Assembly (NCBI GenBank): GCA_020161835.1
Contig: JAIUNL010000006.1
Location: 1 to 64,000, forward strand
Origin: Bacteroidota bacterium
GTDB taxonomy: Bacteria; Bacteroidota; JABWAT01
Length of the DNA stretch: 64,000 nt
Reading direction: 5' to 3'
Shown here: positions 38,094-54,277 of the stretch, one piece after another
Position numbering within the stretch: position 1 is the first letter of the stretch
How the letters are laid out: every line of letters begins with the position of its first letter
The notes under the pieces: model-generated
What the model saw: only the letters and a program-made list of their open reading frames with translations
Told to the model about the DNA's origin: nothing
Databases searched by the model: none
Translations under genes and position numbers: made by a program

Positions 38094-38618
38094 ATGGCCA
38101 AAAATCAAAACCTCGACGACCTCATTTCGAGACTGGAAGAAAAGGAAAAAGAAGCATCAATCATCTATGCAGATGAAGAAACTGAACAGGTCGTTATTTT
38201 TGAACTTGGCGGTTCTTTATTTGCATTTCCGGGAAAGCAGGTATTTGAGATTACCACATTTGAGTCAATTACAACTGTTCCGGGTCTTCCGTCCTATTTC
38301 TCAGGACTTATCACCTTGAGGGGTGCAGTTGAAGCAGTTGTTAACCTGAAATATCTGCTCCATTTGCCTTCTGATTCACCAATTTATGGGACCAGGATCA
38401 TTTTTCTCAAGTCAGAAGACCATGTTCTGGGCGGATTGGCTGATTTGGTTTTTGATGTTATGGCAATTCCAAAAAGTAATATTCACCCGCCTCTTCAGAC
38501 CCTCGATGAAGCAAAAGCAGAATATGTTATCGGTGATTTTGAATATAAGGGAAAGCAGGTTGCACTTCTCAGTATAACCAGAATCTTTTCAAAAATTGCC
38601 GAACTCTCGAAAGCTTGA
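38094..38618 (+). CDS. cheW: CheW-like coupling protein (first)
   Basis: A 174-residue CheW-domain protein starting with about 35 charged residues. The domain is seen at VVIFELGGSLFAFPGKQVFEI, GLPSYFSGLITLRGAVEAVV and NLKYLLHL. CheW links receptors to CheA. It opens the chemosensory operon, 5 bp before a second CheW-like gene. Confidence 0.9.
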   Translation: MAKNQNLDDLISRLEEKEKEASIIYADEETEQVVIFELGGSLFAFPGKQVFEITTFESITTVPGLPSYFSGLITLRGAVEAVVNLKYLLHLPSDSPIYGTRIIFLKSEDHVLGGLADLVFDVMAIPKSNIHPPLQTLDEAKAEYVIGDFEYKGKQVALLSITRIFSKIAELSKA

Positions 38619-38623
38619 TTTAA

Positions 38624-39064
38624 ATGAGTTACTCATTTCTTATATTCAGTGTATTCAACAGCAAGTTTGCCATAAGCAGTGAACAGATTTACCGCATTGA
38701 ACGGTTTGATGTTGAAAATATTGAGTTAAGAGACAACCATCCCTCATTTTACCGGGTTGGCGATTATGTGATTTCGCTTGACTGGTTAACTGAAAAAGAG
38801 GTTACTAGTGAAGATACAACCGGGATTTCAAGATTGATTTTATACAGGTCATCCTCAAAAATCAGAGGCATTCCGGTAACAGAACTTCATAAAGTTGAAT
38901 CATTTTATGATGTCAGCCAAATTTCACATATCCCCAAATTTTTCAGGGGAAAACCAGTTTTGGGCTGGGTTCATGCTTTTATAACTGCAAACGGACAGAT
39001 TATTCCAATTCTAAACCTTGAAACACTGGCCATCCATAATCTGGGTGCCCTGGTTACACACTAA
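38624..39064 (+). CDS. CheW-like coupling protein (second, divergent)
   Basis: A 146-residue CheW-fold protein, more divergent than the first. Visible features are FSVFNSKFAISSEQIYRIE, HIPKFFRGKPVLGWVHAFIT and GQIIPILNLETL, the usual CheW strand order. It may feed a different receptor or modulate the array. It lies 13 bp before the first receptor gene. Confidence 0.82.
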   Translation: MSYSFLIFSVFNSKFAISSEQIYRIERFDVENIELRDNHPSFYRVGDYVISLDWLTEKEVTSEDTTGISRLILYRSSSKIRGIPVTELHKVESFYDVSQISHIPKFFRGKPVLGWVHAFITANGQIIPILNLETLAIHNLGALVTH

Positions 39065-39077
39065 TGCCAGGTGAATT

Positions 39078-41054
39078 ATGATCAGAACAAGAAGCATACA
39101 ATTTACTCTTTTGCTCACCATTACAGTTCTGACACTGTTGCTCATAACTGCTGTTTCATTTTTTGCCCATCAGTCTGCTATTTCAATTATCAATCAGGAA
39201 GCTGATAAACAATACTCACAGAAAGTTGATGATTTTTCAAGGCAGACTGACACTTACCTGAAAAGTTACGAACGGCTTCTGGATATGATTTCAGAAAACC
39301 ATCTTGTAAAAGATATTCTCAGAGAACATGATATTGCCCGATACCAAAAAAGGGCTGAAGATTCACGGTGGCAACTGATCAGAAAAGAAGTCATGCTCCC
39401 AGTTTTTCAGACAAACCGTGATGCAATACGGCTTCTTTATTTTGGAAGTGAACAGCATGGAGAAAATTACCGGCAAAATGATACCACATATAAAAATAAA
39501 TATGATGCAAGAGTAAGAAAATGGTATCAGGCTGCCCGCCAGCAAAACCGGTTAACCTACACAACTTATCCTTCTGCGAACAGGAAAGGTATTGATGTAA
39601 CCATTTCAAGGCCTATCACTGATTCTTTTGGCGGATTTTTAGGTGTTTCCGGAATGGATCTGATTACAGAGCAAATCTTTTCTGGTCTTAGCCAGGATTT
39701 TCTTGATTCAAGTTCTATTGCAGTTGTCATGGATTCAGTCGGTACCATTTTATTTCATTCTGATCAGACCGTGATTCTGAAGAATTTAAAGGACTCTACT
39801 TTAAATTTGGGATCTTCGTTCATAGAAATGGGTAAATCGATGATTGCTGGCGGATCTGGAAAAGTCACTTTTTTTGATCTTACCGGTGAAGAATACATCA
39901 CCTACTTTACACCTGTTGGTTCTACCGGATGGGTTGCAGGAATTGCTGTAAAAACAGAAAAATTGCATGAACCAACCCAATCATTACTCAGAAATATTAT
40001 CCTTGTTGATGTTTTTATTCTGGTTCTGATCCTGATTGCATCCTGGCTGATGACAAGACGAATGACATCTGCACTCAGAATGATTGTTGAAAATCTTAAA
40101 CTGATAGCACTTGGGGATGCAAAACGTCACCGCCAGCTCACTTTGAACACGAACGACGAATTTGGTGAACTTGCTCATTGGTTTAATGCTTTTGCAGAAA
40201 AATATGAATTGCTTTTTGAGCAGCTTAGTTTGCGGGGAGTTCAGATTACTGAACTTTCAGGACAGTTAAATAATTCAATTTACCAGTTAAATGCTGCAAC
40301 CATAGAACAGTCGACGGCAGTAGTTCAGACTACAAGTACTATGGAAGAAATGCACAAAACAAGTTTAAATATTTCAGAAAGTTCTGAAGGGGTACTTACC
40401 GCAGCGAGTAAAAACCAGTCAGCAGCCAAAGAAGGTGTTGAGCTAATGCGTATTTTCCTTAAAAAAATGGAAGATATTGATAAGCTGAATCAGGAGAAAA
40501 CCCATGATATTCTTCAGATGAAAAAGAAAGTTACCAGAATTCATGAAGTAATGGGATTAATTAAGGGAATTAATGAACAAACCAAACTGATTGCTTTTAA
40601 TGCTTCACTAGAGGCCTCAGGTGCTGGTGAAGGCGGAAAACGGTTTTCTGTTGTTGCCAATGAAATCAGACGCCTTGCCGATACCGTTCAGGAATCAATG
40701 GAAGAAATCAGGGTTATGACAGACGAAATTCAGACTCAAACCCAGTTGCTGATAAAAGGAGCTGATGAAAGTAACCAGATGGTTGCATCTGGTGTGCAGG
40801 CTTCACGTGATGTAGAAACGCATTTTAATTCTATTTATTCAGTTGCAGAATTGGTTACTTTGAATTCAAAACAGATAACACTGGCGACTACCCAGCAGAG
40901 AGTTGCAAGTGAACAGATTGTTGCAACCTTACATGATATTTCTGCTGCAATCAGTCATGTGGTAAGTATGGCATCTGATGTTTCACATATTTCTCATGAA
41001 CTGGATGTCATTTCAGCAGATTTCAAAACCTTGGGTACAATAGAAAAACGATGA
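39078..41054 (+). CDS. Methyl-accepting chemotaxis protein with periplasmic Cache-type sensor
   Basis: A 658-residue receptor. Helix 1 is about 8-30 and helix 2 about 305-326. The region between has dCache features, including YDARVRKWYQAAR and TYTTYPSANRKGIDVTISRP, and GWVAGIAV. A HAMP domain lies at about 325-380. The signalling hairpin tip reads INEQTKLIAFNASLEASGAG. There is no C-terminal CheR-docking pentapeptide. It overlaps the next receptor gene by 4 bp. The ligand is unknown. Confidence 0.92.
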   Translation: MIRTRSIQFTLLLTITVLTLLLITAVSFFAHQSAISIINQEADKQYSQKVDDFSRQTDTYLKSYERLLDMISENHLVKDILREHDIARYQKRAEDSRWQLIRKEVMLPVFQTNRDAIRLLYFGSEQHGENYRQNDTTYKNKYDARVRKWYQAARQQNRLTYTTYPSANRKGIDVTISRPITDSFGGFLGVSGMDLITEQIFSGLSQDFLDSSSIAVVMDSVGTILFHSDQTVILKNLKDSTLNLGSSFIEMGKSMIAGGSGKVTFFDLTGEEYITYFTPVGSTGWVAGIAVKTEKLHEPTQSLLRNIILVDVFILVLILIASWLMTRRMTSALRMIVENLKLIALGDAKRHRQLTLNTNDEFGELAHWFNAFAEKYELLFEQLSLRGVQITELSGQLNNSIYQLNAATIEQSTAVVQTTSTMEEMHKTSLNISESSEGVLTAASKNQSAAKEGVELMRIFLKKMEDIDKLNQEKTHDILQMKKKVTRIHEVMGLIKGINEQTKLIAFNASLEASGAGEGGKRFSVVANEIRRLADTVQESMEEIRVMTDEIQTQTQLLIKGADESNQMVASGVQASRDVETHFNSIYSVAELVTLNSKQITLATTQQRVASEQIVATLHDISAAISHVVSMASDVSHISHELDVISADFKTLGTIEKR

Positions 41055-42991
41055 AAACTTCATTTAGTCTCAGATACCGTATTCTTTTTTCTTTTGTAGG
41101 CATTACAACGCTGGTTATGATTCTGGTTTCTGTGGTAACCTTCTATTTTGCCGAAAATCTGAGACACGATGCTATTGACCGTTACTTTTCGATGCAGATT
41201 GGTCAATTTGTTGATCTTTTTGAATTGGAAACAGCACATTATCAGAGTAAGCTTAAAACATTTACTGAAGCCAACCAAAGTGAAATCTCGAAATCTTTCA
41301 CAGGTAACAGTGACGCCCGTTCTGAATCAGCACGGCATATTCAGAAAGAAATAAAATCTTTACTGAGTACTGACCCTGAAATTTTAGCCAATTTTTTTGT
41401 TGTCTCACCTCAAGGCGGGTTTTTAACGGGAGTTGAAAATGAGAACAATAATCTTTTAAAGGTGCTTTTGAATTCTGGTGCCGGTTCAAATCCTCAGATT
41501 TTACTTGACACACTTTCTTCAAACAAGCAGTCACGCCTTATTCTTACCCACCCTGCTCAGACAGGCACGTCAGCTGCTGAACGTGGTTTTGCCAGTCTTG
41601 TTCTTGACTTTTCTGCATTAATCAGAAAGTTTGGGGCAATGGCTGCAGATTCTGGTGTCTATATTCAGATTTTCGATCAGAACGATAAACTCATATTTGC
41701 CTCTGATTCGGCATTTCTGCCCTACATCGGCAAGTCCGTAATGGATGAGAATGGTGAAGTTATTGGTTTCAGAACCGGTGTTCATAATGAGAATAACGGA
41801 ATAACCAATATTGATAACTGGCACAACCGGTCTTTATATATTCTTTCTGCACCGAATACCCCGTTCAGGATTATGTTTTCAGTAAAGGATACCGAACAGA
41901 AAGAATCGGTCGCTGAAATCAGCAATTTACTTCTTGTTTTTAATGCAGTTCTCTTTTTCATTCTGATTATTCTGGCCTGGTATAACTCGACAAAAGTTAT
42001 CAGTCCGGTTACTCATCTCACCAGGCTTATCAGGGAGACTTCGGCCGGTACTTTGAAGCTTTCTGATCTCGTTGACAAAAAACAGGATGCCGAATTTCAG
42101 GAGCTTGGGATGGCATTCAGAGATTTTATTTTGTCAACAACTTCGGTTGTAGATGGTATCAAACAGAACGGAATTGAACTCAGCGGGATGACTGAAGATA
42201 TAAATGGAACGCTTTCGAAATTTTCAGAATCTGCCTCAACTTTATCAGCTGCAGTTGCGCAGACAACCTCAGCGATGGAAGAAATGGCGGCCTCAAGCCG
42301 GAATATTTCTGCAACAACCGGTTCTGTGGTTGCCATTGCACGGCAGAGTCAGGCAAGGGCCCTTGATGGTATGGATGAGTTCAAGTCATTCCTGAAAAAA
42401 ATGGAAGAAATCAGGGCTAAAAATGATAACCGGTCGCATGATATCGTTGCGCTTGGTAAAAAGGCCGCCAGAATTACCGAAATCATGACGATTATTAACC
42501 ACATTAATGAACAGACAAAACTGATCGCATTTAATGCCGCACTTGAGGCTTCTGGTGCGGGTGAGGCCGGGAAACGGTTTTCAGTTGTTGCGAATGAAAT
42601 CAGACGGCTGGCAGATAACGTGCAAGAATCAACCGAAGAAATTAAGCTGATGATCAGTGAAATTCAGCAGTCGACCGGTGAACTGATGAAGGGAACAGCA
42701 GAAGCAAATTCTTCAATTCAATCTGGTGTGAATCAGGTGAAAGATATTGTCAGTTCCATGAATTTATTTGTGGAAGAATCAAGAAATACAACCGATTCGG
42801 CGCAGCAAATAAGTTATTCAACCCAGCAACAGTTAAGTGCTGCCGAAGAAATTGTGACCACTCTTCACGATATTTCACTTACTGCTTCCCAATTTGCTGA
42901 AATGAGTACTGATCTGGCCAATACGGCTGAAAAATTAAATTCAATGTCAGTTCAACTTGTTGAAATGAGTATTGTAAGTGTTCATAAATAA
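41051..42991 (+). CDS. Methyl-accepting chemotaxis protein (second transmembrane receptor)
   Basis: A 646-residue receptor with the same layout as its neighbour: helix 1 near 10-32, a periplasmic sensor of about 260 residues, helix 2 near 297-315, HAMP, and a signalling domain. The tip INEQTKLIAFNAALEASGAG is nearly identical to that of the first receptor, but the sensor region is very different. The pair likely arose by duplication, with the sensing part diverging. No CheR-docking tail is present. Confidence 0.92.
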   Translation: MKTSFSLRYRILFSFVGITTLVMILVSVVTFYFAENLRHDAIDRYFSMQIGQFVDLFELETAHYQSKLKTFTEANQSEISKSFTGNSDARSESARHIQKEIKSLLSTDPEILANFFVVSPQGGFLTGVENENNNLLKVLLNSGAGSNPQILLDTLSSNKQSRLILTHPAQTGTSAAERGFASLVLDFSALIRKFGAMAADSGVYIQIFDQNDKLIFASDSAFLPYIGKSVMDENGEVIGFRTGVHNENNGITNIDNWHNRSLYILSAPNTPFRIMFSVKDTEQKESVAEISNLLLVFNAVLFFILIILAWYNSTKVISPVTHLTRLIRETSAGTLKLSDLVDKKQDAEFQELGMAFRDFILSTTSVVDGIKQNGIELSGMTEDINGTLSKFSESASTLSAAVAQTTSAMEEMAASSRNISATTGSVVAIARQSQARALDGMDEFKSFLKKMEEIRAKNDNRSHDIVALGKKAARITEIMTIINHINEQTKLIAFNAALEASGAGEAGKRFSVVANEIRRLADNVQESTEEIKLMISEIQQSTGELMKGTAEANSSIQSGVNQVKDIVSSMNLFVEESRNTTDSAQQISYSTQQQLSAAEEIVTTLHDISLTASQFAEMSTDLANTAEKLNSMSVQLVEMSIVSVHK

Positions 42992-43013: not shown

Positions 43014-44054
43014 ATGCCACTGAAAAAAATAAGCGTTCTGATTGTGGATGATTCCCCGACAGTCAGAGATATTTTCAGGGCAATCTTTGAATCTGATCCA
43101 GATGTAGAAGTGATTGGTGAAGCAGCCAACGGTCAGGAAGCCATTGATTTTGTGGCAAAAGATCGCCCAAGTATCATCACGATGGATGTGTTTATGCCAA
43201 TAATGAATGGTCCGGATGCCATTCAGCATATTATGGGCAATACGGCAACTCCCATTTTGGTCGTTACAACAGCCAAAGATGCCACACTCGCATTTCAATG
43301 TTTGAGTAAAGGTGCTCTTGAAGTTATTGAGAAGCCTGATTTCGCCTATATTCAAGATGAAATCAAAAGAAAAGGACTCATTACCAAGCTTAAGTCATTA
43401 TCAAGAGTTCCGGTCGTCACCCACATGGCCGGAAAAACCAAAACAGTAAGAGAACCGGTTGCCGCAGATTTAGGCAACAGACGGATTTTGGCAATTTGTT
43501 CAAGTACAGGCGGTCCAAAAGCATTATCTATTTTACTGGGACAGATACCAGGTGATTTCCCCTATCCGATTGTGATCACCCAGCACATGTACGAAGGATT
43601 TATTGATGGCCTTGTTGAATGGCTTCAGACAACAACACCACTCAAGGTCAAGGTTGCAGAACAAGGTGAAATTTTAAAATCGGGTGTTGTTTTTGTGGCT
43701 CCAACCGGAAAACATCTTGAAGTCTCAATGGCAGAAACGATCAGATTAACAAATGATCCTCTGGTAGAAGGGCATCGGCCTTCGGGTGAAAAATTATTTT
43801 CTTCAGTTGCCGCCGTTTATGGAAAAAAAGCCATTGGTGTTATTCTTACCGGAATGGGCGGTGATGGTTCGACTTCACTGGGCCTTATAAAAAAAGCTGG
43901 CGGATTTACCATTGCTCAGGATGAAAAATCTTGTGTTGTATTTGGAATGCCAAAAGAAGCAATAGCAAAAGGTAGTGCAACGGTTGTGTTACCACTTACA
44001 GAAATTGCTCCGGCCATTATTAAACACCTGTCTCATTCGATATTGAAAGTTTAA
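43014..44054 (+). CDS. cheB: CheB: receptor methylesterase/glutamine deamidase with receiver domain
   Basis: A 346-residue CheB. The receiver has acidic residues in VDDSP and the phosphoacceptor Asp58 in TMDVFMP. The methylesterase triad is Ser164 (CSSTGGPKA), His191 (TQHMYEGF) and Asp284 (GMGGDG). It removes methyl groups from receptors for adaptation. It is adjacent to cheR. Confidence 0.94.
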   Translation: MPLKKISVLIVDDSPTVRDIFRAIFESDPDVEVIGEAANGQEAIDFVAKDRPSIITMDVFMPIMNGPDAIQHIMGNTATPILVVTTAKDATLAFQCLSKGALEVIEKPDFAYIQDEIKRKGLITKLKSLSRVPVVTHMAGKTKTVREPVAADLGNRRILAICSSTGGPKALSILLGQIPGDFPYPIVITQHMYEGFIDGLVEWLQTTTPLKVKVAEQGEILKSGVVFVAPTGKHLEVSMAETIRLTNDPLVEGHRPSGEKLFSSVAAVYGKKAIGVILTGMGGDGSTSLGLIKKAGGFTIAQDEKSCVVFGMPKEAIAKGSATVVLPLTEIAPAIIKHLSHSILKV

Positions 44055-44056
44055 CA

Positions 44057-45607
44057 GTGTCTTCAACGTCTGTTCAAATCCAAAAATTTGCTTCCACAAT
44101 TACTGAACGATATGGTATTGTGGTAACCCGTGAACAGAGGGAAACACTTTCAAAATATGTCGCAGAACGAATGACATATCTTGGCTATCAATACTTTGAC
44201 GATTATTATTCATGGTTGCAGTTCAAAGCAAATGAAATTGAGTGGGAACAGTACATCAGTCTGATTACAAATAATGAAACCTATTTTTTCAGAGAACCCA
44301 ATCATTTCAGAGTTCTTGATACTTTGATTTTTGATGAGTTGATGAGAACAGTACCGGCAGACAGGAAAATAAGGGTTTGGAGTTGCGGGTGCTCGTCAGG
44401 TGAAGAACCCTATTCTATTGCAACACTGATTAAAGACAAATTTGGGTTGTCAGTTTTACAAAACCGGTTTGAAGTTATTGCAAGTGACCTTGATCAGAAA
44501 ATTCTTGCTGCTGCCCGAAATGCGGAATACGGAAAGAATTCTTTCAGGGTGAAGGAACATGCCTACATTCTTTCAAATTTTACAGAAACACCCAATTCCC
44601 GCTGGAAATTGAGTGATGATATTGCAGGTGCAGTTAAATTTTTCAGGTTTAACGTTTGTGAAGAACCTGATAAAATTGAAAACCTTGCTGAACCTGTAGA
44701 TCTGATTTTTTTCAGAAACGTTTCGATTTACTTTACCTCTGATACACTAAAAAAAGTTCAGCACAGACTTCAAAGTCGTCTTAATTTGAATGGTTACCTT
44801 TTTGTTGCCAGTTGCGAAACCATGCTTCATGACCTTGGTCAATTAAAACTAATTGATCAGGGTGGTGCCTTTTTGTTTAAAAAGTCGGTCGGAAATAGTG
44901 TTTCTGAACCCTTCAAACTGAATGCAAAGCCTGTCCAGATTAAAAAAGAAGAGGTTCAGTCCAATAAGGTTGAAAGTTATGATACCCTGCTTCAAAGAAT
45001 CCGGGGACTGATTGATGAACGAAAACCTGCACATTCCGAAAAAAGGGCAGTGACCGATGCCATTGATGTTGTAAATCAGGCGATCAGCCAAAATCAGGAT
45101 CAGATTACCAATCTGGCTCTTCTTCGTCTTCAGGAAGACCTTTTTGATGAGGCTGTCAGACTGATATCACATAAAAAGGATAAAACCTTTAAAGATATGG
45201 CGGTTGAGGCTTATTCTCTCATGTGTCTGAGCAGGTTTTCTGAAGCTGATATTCCCATTGGAAAGATGAAAAAAAGTGAGGAATTTAATCCGGTTGGGTA
45301 CTTATTTGACGGGTTAAATTACAAACTTCAGGGAAAGTTTGATCAGGCAACTGTTTCTTTCAGAAGATGTATTTACCTGGATCTGAGTTTTGCAACTCCC
45401 CATTTTCATCTGGGCAATATTTACCAGCAGACTAAAAAATGGACCCTGGCAAAAAGTGAATATGAACTGACTTTGAAATTGATTGATAAAAACCGTAAAC
45501 AACTGATAGAATTCAATAAACCGGATGTCTCGATAGATTACATCCAGTATGCCTGTCAGAAAATATTGAAAAACTACACCCAGGAAATGAATGAGAAGGT
45601 GAACTGA
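44057..45607 (+). CDS. cheR: CheR methyltransferase fused to a TPR-like tail
   Basis: A GTG start gives 516 residues, much longer than a plain CheR (about 270-290). The N-terminal half is CheR: ITNNETYFFREPNHF and VWSCGCSSGEEPYSIA, with SAM binding. The second half (about 300-510) contains helical repeats resembling TPRs, with GKFDQATVSFRRCIYLD and FATPHFHLGNIYQQTKKW. CheR-TPR fusions are known in non-flagellar chemosensory systems. The stop overlaps the Hpt gene start by one base (TGATG). Confidence 0.92.
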   Translation: MSSTSVQIQKFASTITERYGIVVTREQRETLSKYVAERMTYLGYQYFDDYYSWLQFKANEIEWEQYISLITNNETYFFREPNHFRVLDTLIFDELMRTVPADRKIRVWSCGCSSGEEPYSIATLIKDKFGLSVLQNRFEVIASDLDQKILAAARNAEYGKNSFRVKEHAYILSNFTETPNSRWKLSDDIAGAVKFFRFNVCEEPDKIENLAEPVDLIFFRNVSIYFTSDTLKKVQHRLQSRLNLNGYLFVASCETMLHDLGQLKLIDQGGAFLFKKSVGNSVSEPFKLNAKPVQIKKEEVQSNKVESYDTLLQRIRGLIDERKPAHSEKRAVTDAIDVVNQAISQNQDQITNLALLRLQEDLFDEAVRLISHKKDKTFKDMAVEAYSLMCLSRFSEADIPIGKMKKSEEFNPVGYLFDGLNYKLQGKFDQATVSFRRCIYLDLSFATPHFHLGNIYQQTKKWTLAKSEYELTLKLIDKNRKQLIEFNKPDVSIDYIQYACQKILKNYTQEMNEKVN

Positions 45608-45984
45608 TGCAACTGAATCAGGCCATGTTCATTGATAAATTTTGCAATGAAGCTACACAGGTAAAAGAAAAACTTGAGGGTGCCCTTGGTGCCCTGAATG
45701 AAAACCCAGAAAATAATGATGAAATTCTGGTGATAAAGCGGGCATCACACAGCCTGAAGGGGCTAAGTCTGATGCTAAAATTCACTGCTGTCGGGCAACT
45801 TATGGCTGCAGCAGAACAGGTTAGCGAAAAATATGCAAATGGTGGCAGAGGTGCAGACCCAGATTATCTGTACCTGATAATGGAAGTATTAACTGCACTT
45901 GATGAATCTATAGATAAAATAAAATCCGGTGAAGGCAATAACCTGAACTGGGATGAACTCACAGAAAAGTTGAAACAACTCTGA
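45607..45984 (+). CDS. Stand-alone histidine phosphotransfer (Hpt) protein
   Basis: A 125-residue Hpt domain with phosphorylatable His48 in ASHSLKGLSLMLKF. Its sequence around the histidine (MLKF then GQL) resembles the first Hpt domain of the CheA next door, where the histidine is also residue 48. That suggests a duplication. It could act as an extra phosphate shuttle or sink between CheA and the two response regulators. Confidence 0.85.
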   Translation: MQLNQAMFIDKFCNEATQVKEKLEGALGALNENPENNDEILVIKRASHSLKGLSLMLKFTAVGQLMAAAEQVSEKYANGGRGADPDYLYLIMEVLTALDESIDKIKSGEGNNLNWDELTEKLKQL

Positions 45985-45994
45985 GGCCGGCTCC

Positions 45995-48900
45995 ATGGCA
46001 GGACTAGATACCTCGAAATTTGCGCAGAGGTTCAGTGCAGAAAGCAGGGAAAAAGTTTCCGGCATATATGCACAACTTCAGATTGGCCCGTTGAGTGACT
46101 ATCCGGATGCATTAGATCAGATCCGGAAAAATGTTCACTCGCTGAACGGTGTTGCCAATATGCTGAAATTTTCCACAATCGGGCAATTGGCTGCAGAAAT
46201 GGAATCCATTCTGAAGGCGATGGTTGATAAAAAAACTGAGACCTATCAGTGGGTGAATCAGCTTGTCGAAAAATTTGCAGGCATTGTTTCTGAAGAACTC
46301 AAGCGTATTGAAACGGATCCCAAGGCCGAACAGTACCGTCATGCATTTCTTGATACCCTGAAGCAAATTTCTGCCGGCGGAACTTATACGCCCGAAGTTA
46401 CCCAGACCAAAGAATCCAAACAGGAAGACCTCAGATTTACCAAAGAACGGTTTCTTAAAAAGTTTATTATTGAGGCTGAAGGTTACGTAACTGAATTAAA
46501 TTCAATTCTTCAAAGTTTAAACTCGTCCGAAGATCTTGAAACCCGCCAAACCGATCTCAAAAATGTGGTTCATGCCTTTAAAGGTTCTTCCCGTTTACTT
46601 GGGTTTAATGATTTGTTTACCAACCTTGAACGGCTTGAAGATTATTTTAACGATAATATTAAACTTGGCCGGGGTCTATCAGTTCAATTTAAAACTGATT
46701 TTAAAGAAGTAACTGATAATCTGAGTTTAGCACTGAACCGCATTTCAGGCGGTGAGATGGAAAACACAACCGATCCGCGGCTTCTTGAAAGCGTAAACCG
46801 GATTCTGGGCGTTGAAACCAAGCCGGTTGCTCCCATCCGCACAGAAAAACCGGCAGTGGTTGTTTCTACACCGGCACCTGTAATTAAAACCGAACAGCCT
46901 AAAACCGCATCTGAACCTGCCGCACCGGCACCTGGTCCGAAAAAGTTTGACCGGTCAATTTTTGTCGCAAAATTTGTTGATGAATCACTCGAAAACAATG
47001 ATTTACTTTCAGATAACCTTCTGAACCTTGAAAAAAATCTTTCTGACATGAACCTGGCCAAAGAATGCATGAGGCTTGCTCACGTATTGAAGGGTTCTGC
47101 AAGAATGATCGGGTTCAAATATCAGGGTGGAATTCTTCATAAAATTGAAGATTTACTGAATGAATTTGTAAACGGAACTCTGAAGGTGAATGAATATCAT
47201 ACAGAGTTACTTATTGCAACCGCTGATCATCTTAAAGAAAATCTGCTCAATATAAAAAGGGAACAGGCTGAATTACCTTCCAATCAGCTGATTCTGGATG
47301 CCCTTGATAATGCCGTAGCTCAAAAACCATTTACCATTCCGCAAATAGAAAAAGTTGCAGAGGCCGCACCCAAGCCAAAACAACCTGAACAGGAAGAAAA
47401 ACGCAGAGACGCAGCATCTTCATCACGATCATTGCAACTTGAAGCTGAAGCCAGGGAAGATGCCGCCACTGACAATATCAACGTCAGAAAATTTGGCGAC
47501 ACAATAAGGGTAAATACTGCAAAACTTGATGAAACGATCAAACTTGTAGGAGAGTTGTTAATCAACCGGCAACGATCACAGATTCGTCTCACCGAGCTTC
47601 AGCACCTCAGAAAAATGATGAAGGGTTTTGTTTACCAGATGACATCTCTGGTCCAGAATTCTGAAGATGATCAAACCCGTGATATTCTCAGGCAGTCGGA
47701 ACGGTTGCTTTCTATGCTTGAAGGTCAGGCACACCGTCAGCGTGAAGATATGGCCTTTCAGGATTTGATTATCAATGACCTGCAAACCAATACGATTAAA
47801 ATGCGGATGGAACCTCTCAGTGTTATTTTTAATGCATTTCCGAGAGCAATCCGTGACATATCAAAAAGTTTAAATAAACAGGTTGAACTGGTTATTCAGG
47901 GTGAAGAAACTGAACTTGACCGGAAAATGATCGAGAAACTGACTGATCCGCTTATACATCTGGTCAGAAATGCAATTGATCACGGCATCGAACCAGTTGA
48001 AGAACGCCAACGTCTTGAAAAACCACTCAGAGGGTTACTCAGAATCAGAGCCATGACTGAGGGCAGCAATATTGTGCTGATTATTCAGGATGATGGTAAA
48101 GGTATTGATGTAGAAAGCATTAAAGCGAAAGCCCTACAGAAAAAATTGTTTGAAAGTCAGGAAGAAATTGATGCTTTAAATGAAATTGAAGTCATGAAGC
48201 TTATTTTCCTTCCAAATTTTTCAACAGCAAAATTGATCACAGATTTGTCGGGTCGTGGTGTTGGACTGGATATCGTCAAGAAAAACATTGAAGATCTGAA
48301 AGGCTTTATTTCGGTTGATTCAATTCCCGGAAAAGGAACCACCTTTACCATCAAACTGCCACTTACCCTTACAACTCTTCGTTCTCTGGTTTGCACAGCG
48401 GGCGGTCAGAAATGGGCCATTCCAATCAGTTCAATCAAAAGAACACTCGTTATCAGAAAAAATGAAGTTATAGAAGTGGTTGACCGTGATGCCATACGTC
48501 TTGATAACCAGATTATTCCGCTTGTGCGGCTATCAAGAACACTTGGTATCAACGACATCAATGAATATCCTGATAAACTCATGGTTTTGGTTGGCTATTT
48601 TGGAAAAGAGCAAATTGCTTTTGTTGTTGAAGACATTTACGAAGAAACCGAAATCGTCATCAAACCGGTGCCTTCACTGATCAGAAAAATCAGAAACATC
48701 AGTTCAGTTACTGTTTCTTTGAATGGTGAAATAATCCCCATATTATTCATGCCCGAACTGATCAACAGTGCTAAACTCGTGCAGGAAGGATTAAAAGAAC
48801 CTGTTATTATTTCAAAAGGAAAGGAGAATATTCATACGGTCCTGGTCGTTGATGATTCTCTGAATACCCGTGAAATTGAAAAAACGATTCTTGAAGCCTA

Positions 48901-49195
48901 TGGCTATAAAGTTGAGACAGGTCGTGATGGTCTTGACGGATTTGAAAAAGCCATGGAAGGAAATTATGATATTATCGTGAGTGATCTTGAAATGCCAAGA
49001 TTAAATGGATTTGGATTTATTGAAAAGCTCAGACAACAGGAAAAATATAAACACACACCTGTCATAATTGTGACCAGCCGTGAAAATGAAAACGATAAAC
49101 GACGGGGCATTGAGGTGGGTGCAAATGCATATATAATTAAAGGTTCGTTCGATCAGACAAGTCTGATTGATACAATTGAAAGTCTTTTAGCTTAA
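45995..49195 (+). CDS. cheA: CheA-type hybrid histidine kinase with three Hpt domains and a receiver
   Basis: A 1066-residue kinase. Three Hpt domains carry His48 (VHSLNGVA), His193 (VHAFKGSS) and His363 (AHVLKGSA). The first is atypical, with Asn in place of the usual Lys. Linkers rich in Pro and Ala follow each. The kinase core shows NTAKLDETIKLVGELLINR, the N-box HLVRNAIDHG (655-664) and GKGI (701-704), with GRGVGLDIVKKN later. A CheW-like domain follows. A C-terminal receiver has Asp997 in SDLEMP. The layout resembles PixL/ChpA/FrzE-type kinases rather than the flagellar CheA. It is the central kinase of the operon. Confidence 0.94.
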   Translation: MAGLDTSKFAQRFSAESREKVSGIYAQLQIGPLSDYPDALDQIRKNVHSLNGVANMLKFSTIGQLAAEMESILKAMVDKKTETYQWVNQLVEKFAGIVSEELKRIETDPKAEQYRHAFLDTLKQISAGGTYTPEVTQTKESKQEDLRFTKERFLKKFIIEAEGYVTELNSILQSLNSSEDLETRQTDLKNVVHAFKGSSRLLGFNDLFTNLERLEDYFNDNIKLGRGLSVQFKTDFKEVTDNLSLALNRISGGEMENTTDPRLLESVNRILGVETKPVAPIRTEKPAVVVSTPAPVIKTEQPKTASEPAAPAPGPKKFDRSIFVAKFVDESLENNDLLSDNLLNLEKNLSDMNLAKECMRLAHVLKGSARMIGFKYQGGILHKIEDLLNEFVNGTLKVNEYHTELLIATADHLKENLLNIKREQAELPSNQLILDALDNAVAQKPFTIPQIEKVAEAAPKPKQPEQEEKRRDAASSSRSLQLEAEAREDAATDNINVRKFGDTIRVNTAKLDETIKLVGELLINRQRSQIRLTELQHLRKMMKGFVYQMTSLVQNSEDDQTRDILRQSERLLSMLEGQAHRQREDMAFQDLIINDLQTNTIKMRMEPLSVIFNAFPRAIRDISKSLNKQVELVIQGEETELDRKMIEKLTDPLIHLVRNAIDHGIEPVEERQRLEKPLRGLLRIRAMTEGSNIVLIIQDDGKGIDVESIKAKALQKKLFESQEEIDALNEIEVMKLIFLPNFSTAKLITDLSGRGVGLDIVKKNIEDLKGFISVDSIPGKGTTFTIKLPLTLTTLRSLVCTAGGQKWAIPISSIKRTLVIRKNEVIEVVDRDAIRLDNQIIPLVRLSRTLGINDINEYPDKLMVLVGYFGKEQIAFVVEDIYEETEIVIKPVPSLIRKIRNISSVTVSLNGEIIPILFMPELINSAKLVQEGLKEPVIISKGKENIHTVLVVDDSLNTREIEKTILEAYGYKVETGRDGLDGFEKAMEGNYDIIVSDLEMPRLNGFGFIEKLRQQEKYKHTPVIIVTSRENENDKRRGIEVGANAYIIKGSFDQTSLIDTIESLLA

Positions 49196-49206: not shown

Positions 49207-50376
49207 GTGAATTTACGTTCATTTTTACGCTGGGGAAATAAATTTGGAGCATTCAATGTTTCTTCAATTTATTATTTTTCAGCATTTTTTACCTTGATGG
49301 CAATTCTTGTCATTTTGGTTTTCTTTTTAGCCGGTGTTGGCTTCGTGAGCATTCTTTTTACTTTGCTTGCTGCGTTTTTTTCTTCCTGGGCAATGACGGT
49401 TTTTTATAAACGGATTACAGGTCTGGTTCAGGAAATTTTTGAAGAGTTCAGACAAAATGATCAGGCCAGAATTCAAATAACAGGTACCAATGAAATGGGA
49501 CAGGTTATTAAGGTTGTGAACGAACTTCTTGAGCGGAATGCTGATTTAAAAAACCAGCTTGTTATGGCCAACGGAAAAATTAATAAACTTGTTGATGCCT
49601 TAAGTGAGCAGTTACGTGATAATGCTGAAGTTTCTGCAACACAGAGCAGTTCAATCGCTGAAACAACTGCAACAATAAAAGAACTTGCAACTTCCGCCGA
49701 AAAAATTGTTCAGGAAACATCAACAGTTGTTGGTCTTGCAGAAGCCACTCAGGCATCAGCTCAAAAAGGGACTCTTGCCATTGCCAACATGCTTGAGCGG
49801 ATGAGTGAGATCCAGAATGAAAACCAGAGACGGATTCATGAAATCGTTATTCTTGGACGAAAAGCTCAGGAAATCGAAAAGGTCATGGATATTATCAATG
49901 ACATTGCTTCAAATACAAAAATAATTGCCTTTAACGCAGGTATTGAAGCTGCCTCATCTGGCGAAGAAGGTAAACGGTTCGGAACTGTTGCTTCTGAAAT
50001 TCGTAAACTCGCAAATACGGTTGCCAATTCAACCAATGAAATCCGTGATAAAATCAAAGAAATTCAAAAAACAACCAACGAGCTTGTTATTGTTTCTGAG
50101 GAAGAAACCAAAAAAATTCAAAGTGGGGTTGATACAGCCCAAACAATGGTTAAAGAACTGACCGAAATTCTTGACAAGGCCGATAAAACATTGGATTGGG
50201 TGAAACAGATTTCACTGGCAACCCAGCAGCAGCTTACCGCAAGCGAACAGGTCGCAATAGTCTTGCATGATATTTCGGATGGTGTAAAACGGTTCACCCA
50301 GGCTATTAATCAGTCAAAGGAAACCTCAGAAGAACTCAAAGACCTTTCAAGAAGTTTAAGAGGAATGGTAAAGTAA
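49207..50376 (+). CDS. Short membrane methyl-accepting protein lacking a periplasmic sensor
   Basis: A GTG start with GGAGG upstream gives 389 residues. Two hydrophobic stretches near 20-75 are close together, leaving no periplasmic domain. The rest is a signalling domain whose tip reads IASNTKIIAFNAGIEAASSG. It may sense a membrane signal, or act through its cytoplasmic part or a partner. It differs from the two upstream receptors, which have large sensors. Confidence 0.9.
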   Translation: MNLRSFLRWGNKFGAFNVSSIYYFSAFFTLMAILVILVFFLAGVGFVSILFTLLAAFFSSWAMTVFYKRITGLVQEIFEEFRQNDQARIQITGTNEMGQVIKVVNELLERNADLKNQLVMANGKINKLVDALSEQLRDNAEVSATQSSSIAETTATIKELATSAEKIVQETSTVVGLAEATQASAQKGTLAIANMLERMSEIQNENQRRIHEIVILGRKAQEIEKVMDIINDIASNTKIIAFNAGIEAASSGEEGKRFGTVASEIRKLANTVANSTNEIRDKIKEIQKTTNELVIVSEEETKKIQSGVDTAQTMVKELTEILDKADKTLDWVKQISLATQQQLTASEQVAIVLHDISDGVKRFTQAINQSKETSEELKDLSRSLRGMVK

Positions 50377-50442: not shown

Positions 50443-51561
50443 TTGCTGCTGAAACCAGTCAAACCTCAATCAAGAAAAGCAGTTGTTGCAAGAGAACGAC
50501 CTTTGATTCTCATTGCGGATGACAGCCCTACCGTTTTGGATATTCTCAAGTTCATTCTTGAAACCAATGGTATGGATACAATTACCGCAACAAATGGGGT
50601 TGAAGCTGTGCAGAAAATGTACAAGGAAATCCCCGATCTGGTCATCCTTGATCTTGAAATGCCTAAAATGAGTGGATATCAGGTTTGCCGGTTACTCAAA
50701 TCAGATCCGACTGTTTCTTATGTGCCCATCATTATTCTGACATCAAAATCATATAAACAGAACAAATTCTGGGGACTTTACTCGGGTGCAGATGATTACC
50801 TCACCAAAGATTTCGAAATTGATCAGTTGGTCAACAGGGTAAAATTCCATTATAATAATCGTGGAAAACTGGTGGATATTAAGCCAGCAATTCCCAAAAC
50901 GATCAATGAAGAAGAAATTATTGAAAATGTGAATGAGGCACTTGACCAAAAACTTTTCGAAACCACAATCATTTTTGAAATTGCCCAGGTTGCACTCAGT
51001 GCCGGGAATCTCGAAGAAAAAGTTGGGAAAGTTCTTACGTTAATGAACCGGGTTTGCGAATTTACTGTTGCTAGTATATTCGTAGTCGAAATGGGTCAGG
51101 GTCGGTTGTTTCTTGAAAACCCCGGAATGGCAAGTGAATCGTATATTTTCAGTCATGTTGAAACTGCCATTCTTGAATCTCAGAATCATGATATGAAGTT
51201 TGACACTCAAAAGGTCATGATTAACCAGTGGGAAACCGGTAAAGACCGGGGCTCACAATTTAATCACATCCAGTCAAGTGTATCTTTCCCACTGAAAATC
51301 AGAGGAATTACACAGGGTCTGGTTACCTACACCCATTTTTCATCCGGTATGTTTCCTGATATTGTTTTTCACCTGCTTAAACGGGCATCAGACCAGATTT
51401 CCATTCTGATTGATGAAGCAATTCTTTTTAATGAGTACAGCAAAATGAGAAGTGATTTATTAAGTCACGCAACAAAAGTCTTTTCAGAAGTGATGGCAAA
51501 CGGACGGGAAATTGAGAAGCAACTGAATAAGAAAATGAAAACAAATTCTCCCTGGATTTAA
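50443..51561 (+). CDS. Response regulator: receiver plus GAF-like domain
   Basis: A TTG start with GAGAGG upstream gives 372 residues. The receiver (about 20-140) has ADDSP and the phosphoacceptor Asp70 in ILDLEMPKMSG. A GAF-like region covers about 180-355. There is no DNA-binding or enzymatic output domain. Its sequence parallels the first half of the next gene, including the linker after the receiver, so the two are a tandem duplication. The likely input is the CheA/Hpt phosphate. Confidence 0.87.
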   Translation: MLLKPVKPQSRKAVVARERPLILIADDSPTVLDILKFILETNGMDTITATNGVEAVQKMYKEIPDLVILDLEMPKMSGYQVCRLLKSDPTVSYVPIIILTSKSYKQNKFWGLYSGADDYLTKDFEIDQLVNRVKFHYNNRGKLVDIKPAIPKTINEEEIIENVNEALDQKLFETTIIFEIAQVALSAGNLEEKVGKVLTLMNRVCEFTVASIFVVEMGQGRLFLENPGMASESYIFSHVETAILESQNHDMKFDTQKVMINQWETGKDRGSQFNHIQSSVSFPLKIRGITQGLVTYTHFSSGMFPDIVFHLLKRASDQISILIDEAILFNEYSKMRSDLLSHATKVFSEVMANGREIEKQLNKKMKTNSPWI

Positions 51562-51573
51562 GGAACCTGATTA

Positions 51574-53745
51574 ATGTCTAGAGATATACCTAAAATATTG
51601 ATTGCGGATGACAGCCCTACAATAGTTGACATCATGAAGTTTATGCTTGAAGCCAGCGGTTATGAAGTTGTGACGGCTACAAATGGTCTTGAAGCGGTTA
51701 TTTCTGCCTTCCGTGAAGATCCAGACCTGGTTCTGCTCGATGTCGAAATGCCAAAAATGAATGGTTATCAGGTTTGCCGGTATCTCAAAGAAGACCGCCA
51801 TCTGAAACAAACTCCCATCATCATTCTAACTTCGCACGCTCAAAAGAAAATGCGTTTTCTCGGTGTTTACACCGGTGCAGATGAATATCTGATTAAAGAT
51901 GATGATCATGAACAGCTTCTGAACCGCATCGAATATTACATCAACAGGAAAAAAACCGGATCAGGGAATCTTCGTGAACCCCGTTCAGTGACTGTTACCG
52001 AAATATCAGTAATGGAGACAGTTAACGGGATTTTGGACAAAAAACTGATTGAGTCAACCATTATCAATCAGGTTGGCCGTCTTGCCGCCAATCTTGACCG
52101 GTTTGATCTGGTAATCAATTCCATTTTCGGTCTCATTGAAAAAATGGAGGAATTTGATTTCTCTGCAATTCTGGTAAGGGAACTGGGCGGAGCTCAGCTC
52201 TATATTCAGACCCAGCGTTCTATACCCCCAGAACTCATCGAAAAATTTCAGACCAAAGTGCTTCAGAGTGCCCTGCATTATGATGTGATTATGGATTCAT
52301 CCAAAGTGACAACAAAACTGATTCCACGAACTGAAAAGGGTGAGTTTCAGTTGGGAGACAAACGGGTTGCTGCTGCCAAAGAAGGGAACCTCAAATTCCA
52401 GGATAACGTGCTCAGAAGCCGCCAGGAACCGGTTGGTATTCTTGCAATCGGGAATTTTTCTGAAGAACCCATTCATAATGATATTGTGGAAACCATTTCG
52501 ATTTTGTCGAATCACGTGGCCATGCTGCTTGATAACTGGCTGATTTGGAAAAGATATAATGATGTAAATCAAACCTTAAATGTAAGGTTGCTTGAGCTCA
52601 ACGTTGAAATTCTTCATGAACTTCAGTCATTTGCAACAAACCTGACCAAATGCAAAAACCTCGAAGAACTCACACAAACGATTATCCGCCAGATACCCAG
52701 AATTATCAGATGCCAGAAAATCAGTCTGATTATCCGAAGAAAAGTGGGTAATGATTACAAGATGGAATCATTTGGCCGTTGGGGAGAAGAATCTTCGAGT
52801 CTGATTTTTGATATTCTGGTTGAATGGCTGATCAATGAACAATTGAATAAAATTACAAATCAGTCAATTATCAACGATTTAAGCAAAGTGAAATTTTTCA
52901 AGGATCATAATCTTGATAAAAATCTTTGTCAGAACATTCTTACTGTGCCGGTCTTTATCGGTGATGAAAAAATAGGGCTCATCAGTTTATTTGACCGGCT
53001 CGAAATTCCTCAATTCAGTCAGCAGGATCTTGAAATTCTCAGGTTTATTTCCGGGATGGTTGCACTCAGCCTGAAGGGAATTATTGAGCAGGATTATCAG
53101 GCCCCGGATAGTATCATGACCAATATGTATAAACGGTTTATGCCTGATGAGTTGGCAACAACCCTCATATTAAATCCTGAATTACTTGAAATGGATGGGT
53201 CAGTACGGCATACAACCGTTCTTTTTCTGGGAATTGATGGTGTTGAGGGGATTCTTGAACATCAGGATACCAAGCGGGTTGTACAGTTTTTTAATGAGTT
53301 TCTTACCATCATGACGACCCAATCTTTCAATTTTGTTGGTGTTGTTGAAAAATATAAAGAATACGGTCTGAAGTGTGTTTTTGGTATTCCGTTCGAGCAA
53401 AAAGACGATGCTGAAAGAGCAATTCAGTGCGCGGTTCACATGCAGCAGGAATTTTCAGAATTGAAGAAAGCATTTAAGGATCTGCCAATCGGTAATTCTG
53501 GTTTAAAAATTCTCATTCACACCGGGAATATCAGTTTTGCTTATTTGGGTCATGAACACCTGAGCGATTTTATTTCCTTCGGGAAAGATGTCAATTTTGG
53601 GATTCAGCTTTCTGAAAAAATTCTTGATGCCGGAATTTATATCTCAGACCGTACCATTATTGAGATTGAACATCCATACGGGTTGAATCCCGTGGATTAT
53701 TTGGGTGAGACTGAATTTCAGATCTATCAGCTTGCAGAAAATTAG
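51574..53745 (+). CDS. Response regulator with GAF domains and a catalytically degenerate class III cyclase domain
   Basis: A 723-residue protein: receiver at about 5-125 with Asp56 in LLDVEMPKMNG, two GAF-like regions (about 165-330 and 350-525), and a class III nucleotide-cyclase homology domain at about 540-720. In that domain the first metal Asp position (F-x-D-I) reads FLGI, so it is Gly553. The second (GD) is Glu596-Tyr597. The transition-state Asn674 is kept, but the Arg four residues later is Gln678. Lys593 remains. It is therefore probably a pseudo-cyclase, perhaps a nucleotide- or protein-binding output. The rest of the fold (VFGIPF, ERAIQCAVHMQ, ILIHTGNISFAYLG) is well kept, so it is under selection. 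It overlaps the convergent bacilliredoxin gene by 4 bp. Confidence 0.88.
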   Translation: MSRDIPKILIADDSPTIVDIMKFMLEASGYEVVTATNGLEAVISAFREDPDLVLLDVEMPKMNGYQVCRYLKEDRHLKQTPIIILTSHAQKKMRFLGVYTGADEYLIKDDDHEQLLNRIEYYINRKKTGSGNLREPRSVTVTEISVMETVNGILDKKLIESTIINQVGRLAANLDRFDLVINSIFGLIEKMEEFDFSAILVRELGGAQLYIQTQRSIPPELIEKFQTKVLQSALHYDVIMDSSKVTTKLIPRTEKGEFQLGDKRVAAAKEGNLKFQDNVLRSRQEPVGILAIGNFSEEPIHNDIVETISILSNHVAMLLDNWLIWKRYNDVNQTLNVRLLELNVEILHELQSFATNLTKCKNLEELTQTIIRQIPRIIRCQKISLIIRRKVGNDYKMESFGRWGEESSSLIFDILVEWLINEQLNKITNQSIINDLSKVKFFKDHNLDKNLCQNILTVPVFIGDEKIGLISLFDRLEIPQFSQQDLEILRFISGMVALSLKGIIEQDYQAPDSIMTNMYKRFMPDELATTLILNPELLEMDGSVRHTTVLFLGIDGVEGILEHQDTKRVVQFFNEFLTIMTTQSFNFVGVVEKYKEYGLKCVFGIPFEQKDDAERAIQCAVHMQQEFSELKKAFKDLPIGNSGLKILIHTGNISFAYLGHEHLSDFISFGKDVNFGIQLSEKILDAGIYISDRTIIEIEHPYGLNPVDYLGETEFQIYQLAEN

Positions 53746-54071
53746 ATCATTTTTTCAACGGCCGCAAAAACAGAATCACGGGTTATTTTATAATGTGATG
53801 CATGCCAGATGGGCTGCCCCTTATGGAAATAAATGACCTGGGGTGATTGATGGGTTATCTTTAGCAATTCTGCAATAGCCAGACTCACCGGTCTGTCTGC
53901 AATTACATCGAGCAACACAATTTCCGGGCATGTATCTACTTTTTCTGCTTTTTCCAATTCTTCAAATGCCGCAGCACTAATACCGCACTGGTAAGAATGC
54001 TTGAACAGGATCCAGGTTTCGCCAGAGGAATTTTTTTTAGTAAAAGTTGACAGATCAGATAAAGTTTTCAT
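53742..54071 (-). CDS. Monothiol bacilliredoxin-like protein (BrxC/YtxJ, DUF2847 family)
   Basis: Starting at the ATG at 54071 gives 109 residues; the frame can extend 15 codons upstream, but that part is hydrophobic and AT-rich. It has the family motif KHSYQCGIS (Cys29) and a thioredoxin-like layout, with QVIYFHKGQPIWHASHYKIT. In bacillithiol-using bacteria this family removes bacillithiol from proteins. No bacillithiol synthesis gene is in view. The TAA overlaps the TAG of the opposite gene. Confidence 0.8.
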   Translation of the reverse strand: MKTLSDLSTFTKKNSSGETWILFKHSYQCGISAAAFEELEKAEKVDTCPEIVLLDVIADRPVSLAIAELLKITHQSPQVIYFHKGQPIWHASHYKITRDSVFAAVEKMI

Positions 54072-54277
54072 GAATTTTATAATAGATAAAGATATAAAGA
54101 TATATAAATATATCATTAGAAACAGATTAAATGTGATATGATTCGATAACCAAATTGAACTTGTTTTGGTTCACCAATTGTTCAGTTCTATATAAAAAAT
54201 AATCGCCAAAACCGCTTAAATCATAAAAAAACAGAGATTTGAAACATTAGAAATTTTAGTGCAGAGGTATTTGCCTT

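Follow-up and report, generated by a model that had tools for sequence, protein, structure and literature searches.

Homologues of class III cyclases that have lost catalytic residues have been described in mycobacteria. Rv1359 carries Gly in place of the first metal-binding Asp and lacks the critical Arg, its orthologue MSMEG_0545 carries Arg at the first metal position, and both are proposed to act non-enzymatically as transcriptional regulators (PMC3961136). In the Pil-Chp chemosensory system of Pseudomonas aeruginosa (ChpA, PilG/PilH, CyaB), PilG activates a separate class III cyclase, CyaB; FimX is described as a degenerate cyclase that binds c-di-GMP (PMC12632253). The term “pseudocyclase” was not found in the literature searched, a result that bears on the term only. 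Pseudo-cyclases thus already have a precedent in Rv1359 and MSMEG_0545, and the protein analyzed here, RRb, is a further variant. Orthologues of RRb differ at the lost first metal position (D1), as do the two mycobacterial proteins; the available part of that source mentions neither a receiver nor a chemosensory operon for them, whereas RRb has both.

RRb is encoded in the window, that is, the whole stretch of 64,000 nucleotides that was analyzed. The class of the window genome was sampled as four genomes of one family (the window genome, G000, and its relatives G001, G002, and G003). RRb consists of the following parts:

51574..53745, + strand: RRb, receiver, GAF-like segment, GAF domain, and pseudo-class III cyclase, 723 amino acids, ATG start
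51595..51933, + strand: receiver domain, residues 8-120 (Pfam PF00072 Response_reg, 6.7e-27)
51994..52563, + strand: GAF-like segment, residues ~141-330, common to RRb and the preceding gene RRa
52657..53073, + strand: GAF domain, residues 362-500 (PF01590/PF13185, Pfam GAF 6.1e-7)
53122..53199, + strand: cyclase N-terminal lead-in YKRFMxDExATTxxLNPxL, residues ~517-542 (alignments)
53209..53742, + strand: pseudo-cyclase domain, residues 546-723 (Pfam, phmmer, alignment, and fold model)
53668..53691, + strand: tail motif EHPYGLNP, residues 699-706 (alignment of four genomes)

The receiver has the residues that define a response regulator (phospho-acceptor Asp, acidic pair, Thr/Ser, and Lys) in the form of Asp56, Asp12 and Asp13, Thr86, and Lys108, all invariant in the four genomes, and going by this full set its phosphorylation looks possible. 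The gene is convergent with a gene for a homologue of the monothiol bacilliredoxin BrxC (53742-54116, - strand) that shares 4 bases with the end of RRb; BrxC relatives are located 3' of the RRb gene in G001 and G002 and none was found at the same place in G003.

The C-terminal part of RRb matches the Guanylate_cyc family (PF00211) over residues 546-694 with 25.7 bits against a Pfam cut-off of 21.9 (E = 1e-5), and a phmmer comparison with solved cyclases identified Cya2 (6fht, 2.9e-17; 2w01, 2.7e-11) as well as CyaC (1wc1) and CyaB (3r5g). Judged by these scores the homology to cyclases is real and well above chance. Structure prediction of the domain by itself gave a model with a pLDDT of 88.4 and a pTM of 0.86 from an alignment of 52 sequences, rich in intact cyclases, which makes its resemblance to a cyclase partly circular. 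Foldseek matched the model to 6fht (Cya2, 1.2e-15) and to 3r5g (CyaB, TMt 0.85), and Gly542, Gly589, Gly604, Pro606, Gly651, Gly659, and Gly670 are conserved in the alignment with homologues. The cyclase fold is thus predicted to be retained, and the class III cyclase fold proposed for the C-terminus in the first-pass annotation is borne out by the Pfam, phmmer, and Foldseek matches alike. The lead-in at residues ~517-542 aligns as the counterpart of the lead-in helix in intact cyclases, and Cya2 (2w01, the catalytic part of 6fht) is the nearest solved relative of the RRb tail in both sequence and fold, lead-in helix included. However, Cya2 is a working guanylyl cyclase with an intact D/D/N/R set, which RRb has lost, and its 2w01 chain carries Glu at the position of RRb Lys593.

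The active site was compared with those of 46 homologous cyclases from the same class and phylum as the RRb genome. The two metal-binding Asp residues, the Asn and the Arg are each present in all 46 comparison cyclases, and the position of Lys593 is occupied by Lys in 43 and by Glu in the other three. RRb carries Gly553, Tyr597, Asn674, and Gln678 at the four canonical positions, keeps Lys593, and has Glu596 in place of the invariant Gly that precedes the second metal Asp position (D2), all exactly as the first-pass annotation had called these residues. Ile667 stands where class IIIb cyclases have the purine-selecting Thr (Thr in 39 of the 42 homologues having a residue there), and a C-terminal K/G pair present in 96% and 91% of homologues, respectively, falls in a deletion in RRb. 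Asp665 was rejected as the base-selecting residue, as the spacing to the invariant Gly670 places that site at 667. The possibility, raised in the first pass, that Asp555 shifts into the metal site was not realized: neither the phmmer nor the MAFFT alignment requires a gap there, the column holds A/R/K/S/E/V in intact cyclases and Thr in two of the four RRb orthologues, and Asp555 was therefore rejected as a stand-in metal ligand.

Each of the three relatives contains an RRb orthologue (94%, 82%, and 72% identical to the window protein). No orthologue outside the class was found among 395 genomes of the phylum, and a wider contig search recovered front-end relatives only; related contigs are labelled “Bacteroidetes bacterium”. 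Across the four orthologues D1 reads G/G/T/D, D2 reads Y/Y/T/H, the purine-selecting position I/I/V/A, the Asn position N/N/H/T, and the Arg position Q/Q/Q/L (Leu in G003), leaving Lys593 as the sole constant residue among those for metal, base, ribose, and phosphate. Asn674, which the first-pass annotation described as remaining, is kept in the window protein and its nearest orthologue but is His or Thr in the other two. None of the four orthologues retains D2, the purine-selecting Thr, or Arg, and the replacing residues differ between species. Given the absence of these three residues throughout, parsimony places the loss of catalysis before the split of the family; D1 and Asn would have been lost later, along separate branches. 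An active cyclase is recognized by two metal-binding Asp residues (here Gly553 and Tyr597), an Asn-Arg pair for ribose positioning and the transition state (not intact in the RRb family), and a base-selecting Lys with Asp or Thr, of which all four orthologues keep the Lys only. On this residue pattern, catalysis by the RRb cyclase domain has almost certainly been lost.

Identity between the two genera amounts to 49% in the pseudo-cyclase domain compared with 79% in the rest of RRb (Fisher p ~3e-14, computed from rounded percentages). Four comparable orthologous sets of intact cyclases from the same genera show the reverse, with domains that are 66%, 85%, 70%, and 70% identical and remainders that are 42%, 62%, 54%, and 34% identical. 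Enzyme-type constraint is therefore gone from the RRb domain, which is less conserved than the rest of its protein, opposite to intact cyclases. Selection was estimated from the two most similar orthologues, which have the least saturated dS (dN/dS of wider pairs is unreliable due to saturation), and gave an omega of 0.056 for the pseudo-cyclase domain (bootstrap 0.022-0.091) and of 0.011-0.027 for residues 1-505. The domain evolves ~3 times faster than the remainder of RRb and is still under purifying selection. No internal stop codon is present in any orthologue. Inside this fastest-evolving domain, an uninterrupted run of eight tail residues, EHPYGLNP, does not vary between the four genomes, suggesting a candidate contact surface.

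RRb is the last gene of an operon of Che genes that are all on the same strand. Its upstream members are:

38094..39064, + strand: CheW (38094-38618) and a CheW-like protein (38624-39064)
39078..42991, + strand: two methyl-accepting proteins (39078-41054, with dCache; 41051-42991)
43014..44054, + strand: CheB
44057..45607, + strand: CheR with TPR repeats
45607..45984, + strand: stand-alone Hpt protein
45995..49195, + strand: CheA with three Hpt domains, a CheW-like region, and a C-terminal receiver
49207..50376, + strand: MCP3, methyl-accepting protein
50443..51561, + strand: RRa, receiver and GAF-like segment (Pfam), a tandem relative of RRb

RRa matches RRb residues 2-337 at 36% identity and has neither the second GAF nor the cyclase domain. 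The operon order is the same in G001, G002, and G003 over the stretches compared, with CheW1 partly or wholly beyond their ends, so that RRb shares one conserved cluster with CheA, CheB, CheR, CheW, and methyl-accepting proteins, as expected of a CheA chemosensory output. This setting and the lost catalytic set support the first-pass view that the chemosensory cascade terminates in a degenerate cyclase and not in a cAMP synthase. Both the operon and Pil-Chp encode a pair of CheW-like proteins, a pair of response regulators, and a CheA that has multiple phosphotransfer domains. However, the Pil-Chp cyclase CyaB is a separate active protein whereas in RRb a dead cyclase domain is part of the regulator itself, and Pil-Chp has PilT-type retraction whereas no PilT-type retraction ATPase was found in the window genome (94% complete), where a single full T2SSE-family protein (PF00437) is GspE/PilB-like with a Cys motif. 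FliG was not found in the genome, and GldM had no match, which is weak evidence given that the model may miss divergent members. A type IV pilus, a flagellum, and gliding were rejected as targets of the system for want of a PilT-type protein, FliG, or GldM match. A second CheA-like protein is encoded elsewhere in the genome (1908 amino acid open frame, G000:C23:40874-41050).

The genome encodes several other cyclases with canonical catalytic residues and nine CRP-like cNMP-binding matches, and cyclic nucleotide signalling is therefore probably live in this organism. A lone cyclase-like frame of 172-179 amino acids is present in the window genome only (G000:C15:9563-9901; L178:5387-5905). By eye it has D1, Asn, and Arg, with Lys changed to Tyr and Gly-Asp to Ser-Ser, and a transposase-like frame is located 2.4 kb upstream.

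A fitted profile that supports the GAF-like segment of RRb matches RRa and loci of Candidatus Cloacimonetes (L041) and Candidatus Muiribacteriota (L042). The latter locus (L042:2-5948) contains in a row the receiver end of a CheA, CheB, RR-GAF-GAF-HD-GYP, and RR-GAF-GAF-SpoIIE. Its proteins share with RRb the receiver-GAF-GAF front end and the location in a CheA/CheB cluster, but end in an HD-GYP-type domain or a PP2C-type phosphatase (SpoIIE) instead of a cyclase fold, and the front-end relative in Candidatus Cloacimonetes ends in a histidine kinase. Because the same front end carries these different outputs elsewhere, the C-terminus of RRb represents a swappable output position, which in this class is held by a dead cyclase.

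Two of the relatives contain a second receiver-pseudocyclase:

L176:8338-9402 (G002) and L177:8210-9274 (G003): second receiver-pseudocyclase, 354 amino acids

In both genomes the gene follows those for CheY, CheX, and an Amt-histidine kinase (ammonium transporter); Guanylate_cyc searches found no counterpart in G000 or G001. Like RRb, it combines a receiver-like domain (24.8 bits, under the Pfam cut-off) with a cyclase domain that lacks D1 (His/Arg), Asn (Thr), and Arg (Gln). Unlike RRb, it has no GAF domain, keeps D2, Lys, and the Ser at the purine position, and has a better conserved cyclase domain (89% identical across genera). A conserved non-catalytic, nucleotide-binding pocket is on these features more plausible here than in RRb. 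A tree joins the two pseudocyclases (89/90) on very long branches (2.1 and 2.6 changes per site), from which a single origin does not follow.

The best reading of these data, to which we assign a probability of roughly 0.55, is that the RRb tail is a non-catalytic dimerization or docking module worked by phosphorylation of the receiver. RRb would serve a CheA-type chemosensory system as its terminal response regulator, and its output domain would descend from an active class III cyclase but now make no cyclic nucleotides. CheA, directly or via its Hpt domains, would phosphorylate Asp56, and both GAF segments together with the conserved lead-in helix would relay the resulting change to the cyclase fold, which may dimerize or dock by showing a surface to a partner, with the invariant EHPYGLNP tail and the segment FGIPFxQKDDAERA as the candidate surface. 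Catalytic loss, site drift, the predicted retention of the fold, purifying selection, the receiver residue set, synteny, and the swappable slot all support this reading, and protein binding or structure is the part of the first-pass proposal with which the data are compatible. Against it stand the ~3-fold faster evolution of the domain, which would fit one that is simply tolerated, the invariant Lys593, which a purely structural role leaves unexplained, and the sample of four genomes from one family. It is conceivable, if unlikely, that RRb functions through its receiver-GAF-GAF part and that a decaying cyclase domain is only tolerated; the domain's low identity relative to the rest of RRb, the reverse of intact cyclases, the active-site drift, and the sister gene RRa without any cyclase domain would fit such a vestige, but an omega far under 1, the absence of stop codons in four genomes, the kept structural glycines and prolines, and the invariant tail argue against decay.

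Class III cyclases work as dimers, and the genome's canonical cyclases and CRP-like proteins would provide a context in which the dead domain pairs with an active cyclase and modulates it, in a dominant-negative or regulatory manner, under chemosensory control. We consider such pairing improbable, since RRb shows no genetic linkage to an intact cyclase and the C-terminal K/G pair of intact cyclases is deleted. Binding of ATP, GTP, or a cyclic nucleotide without turnover, the nucleotide-sensing half of the first-pass proposal, would account for the invariant Lys593 and for Asn674 in two genomes, and degenerate signalling enzymes turned nucleotide receptors are known (FimX, PMC12632253). A sensor pocket should be conserved, however, whereas the orthologues have lost, or disagree at, the positions of the metal ligands, the purine-selecting Thr, the Asn, and the Arg; because a conserved nucleotide pocket would not be expected to drift in this way, sensing at the canonical site is not favored and appears quite improbable. 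That RRb is still an active cyclase, through a non-canonical site or as one half of a heterodimer, is very improbable from its residues, as neither metal ligand is present for one half-site, nor the Arg (and Thr) for the other, so that RRb would complete neither heterodimer site, and Asp555 is not conserved.

In c-di-GMP signalling, GGDEF and EAL domains that have degenerated are well known, whereas a degenerate fate of class III cyclases is, to our knowledge, little documented. We tentatively suggest that RRb and the protein linked to the Amt-kinase may represent a class of response regulators specific to this lineage, whose dead cyclase fold serves as a phosphorylation-gated protein-docking output and which arose either on two occasions or by a single radiation. 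If true, this class would be an analogue of the degenerate GGDEF/EAL effectors within the cAMP-cyclase superfamily. In one small lineage, the orthologues of RRb represent successive stages of active-site loss while the operon stays fixed. Intact paralogues provide internal controls, the other, well-conserved receiver-pseudocyclase provides a contrast, and the RRb lineage thus lets one test why a cyclase fold persists once catalysis is gone.
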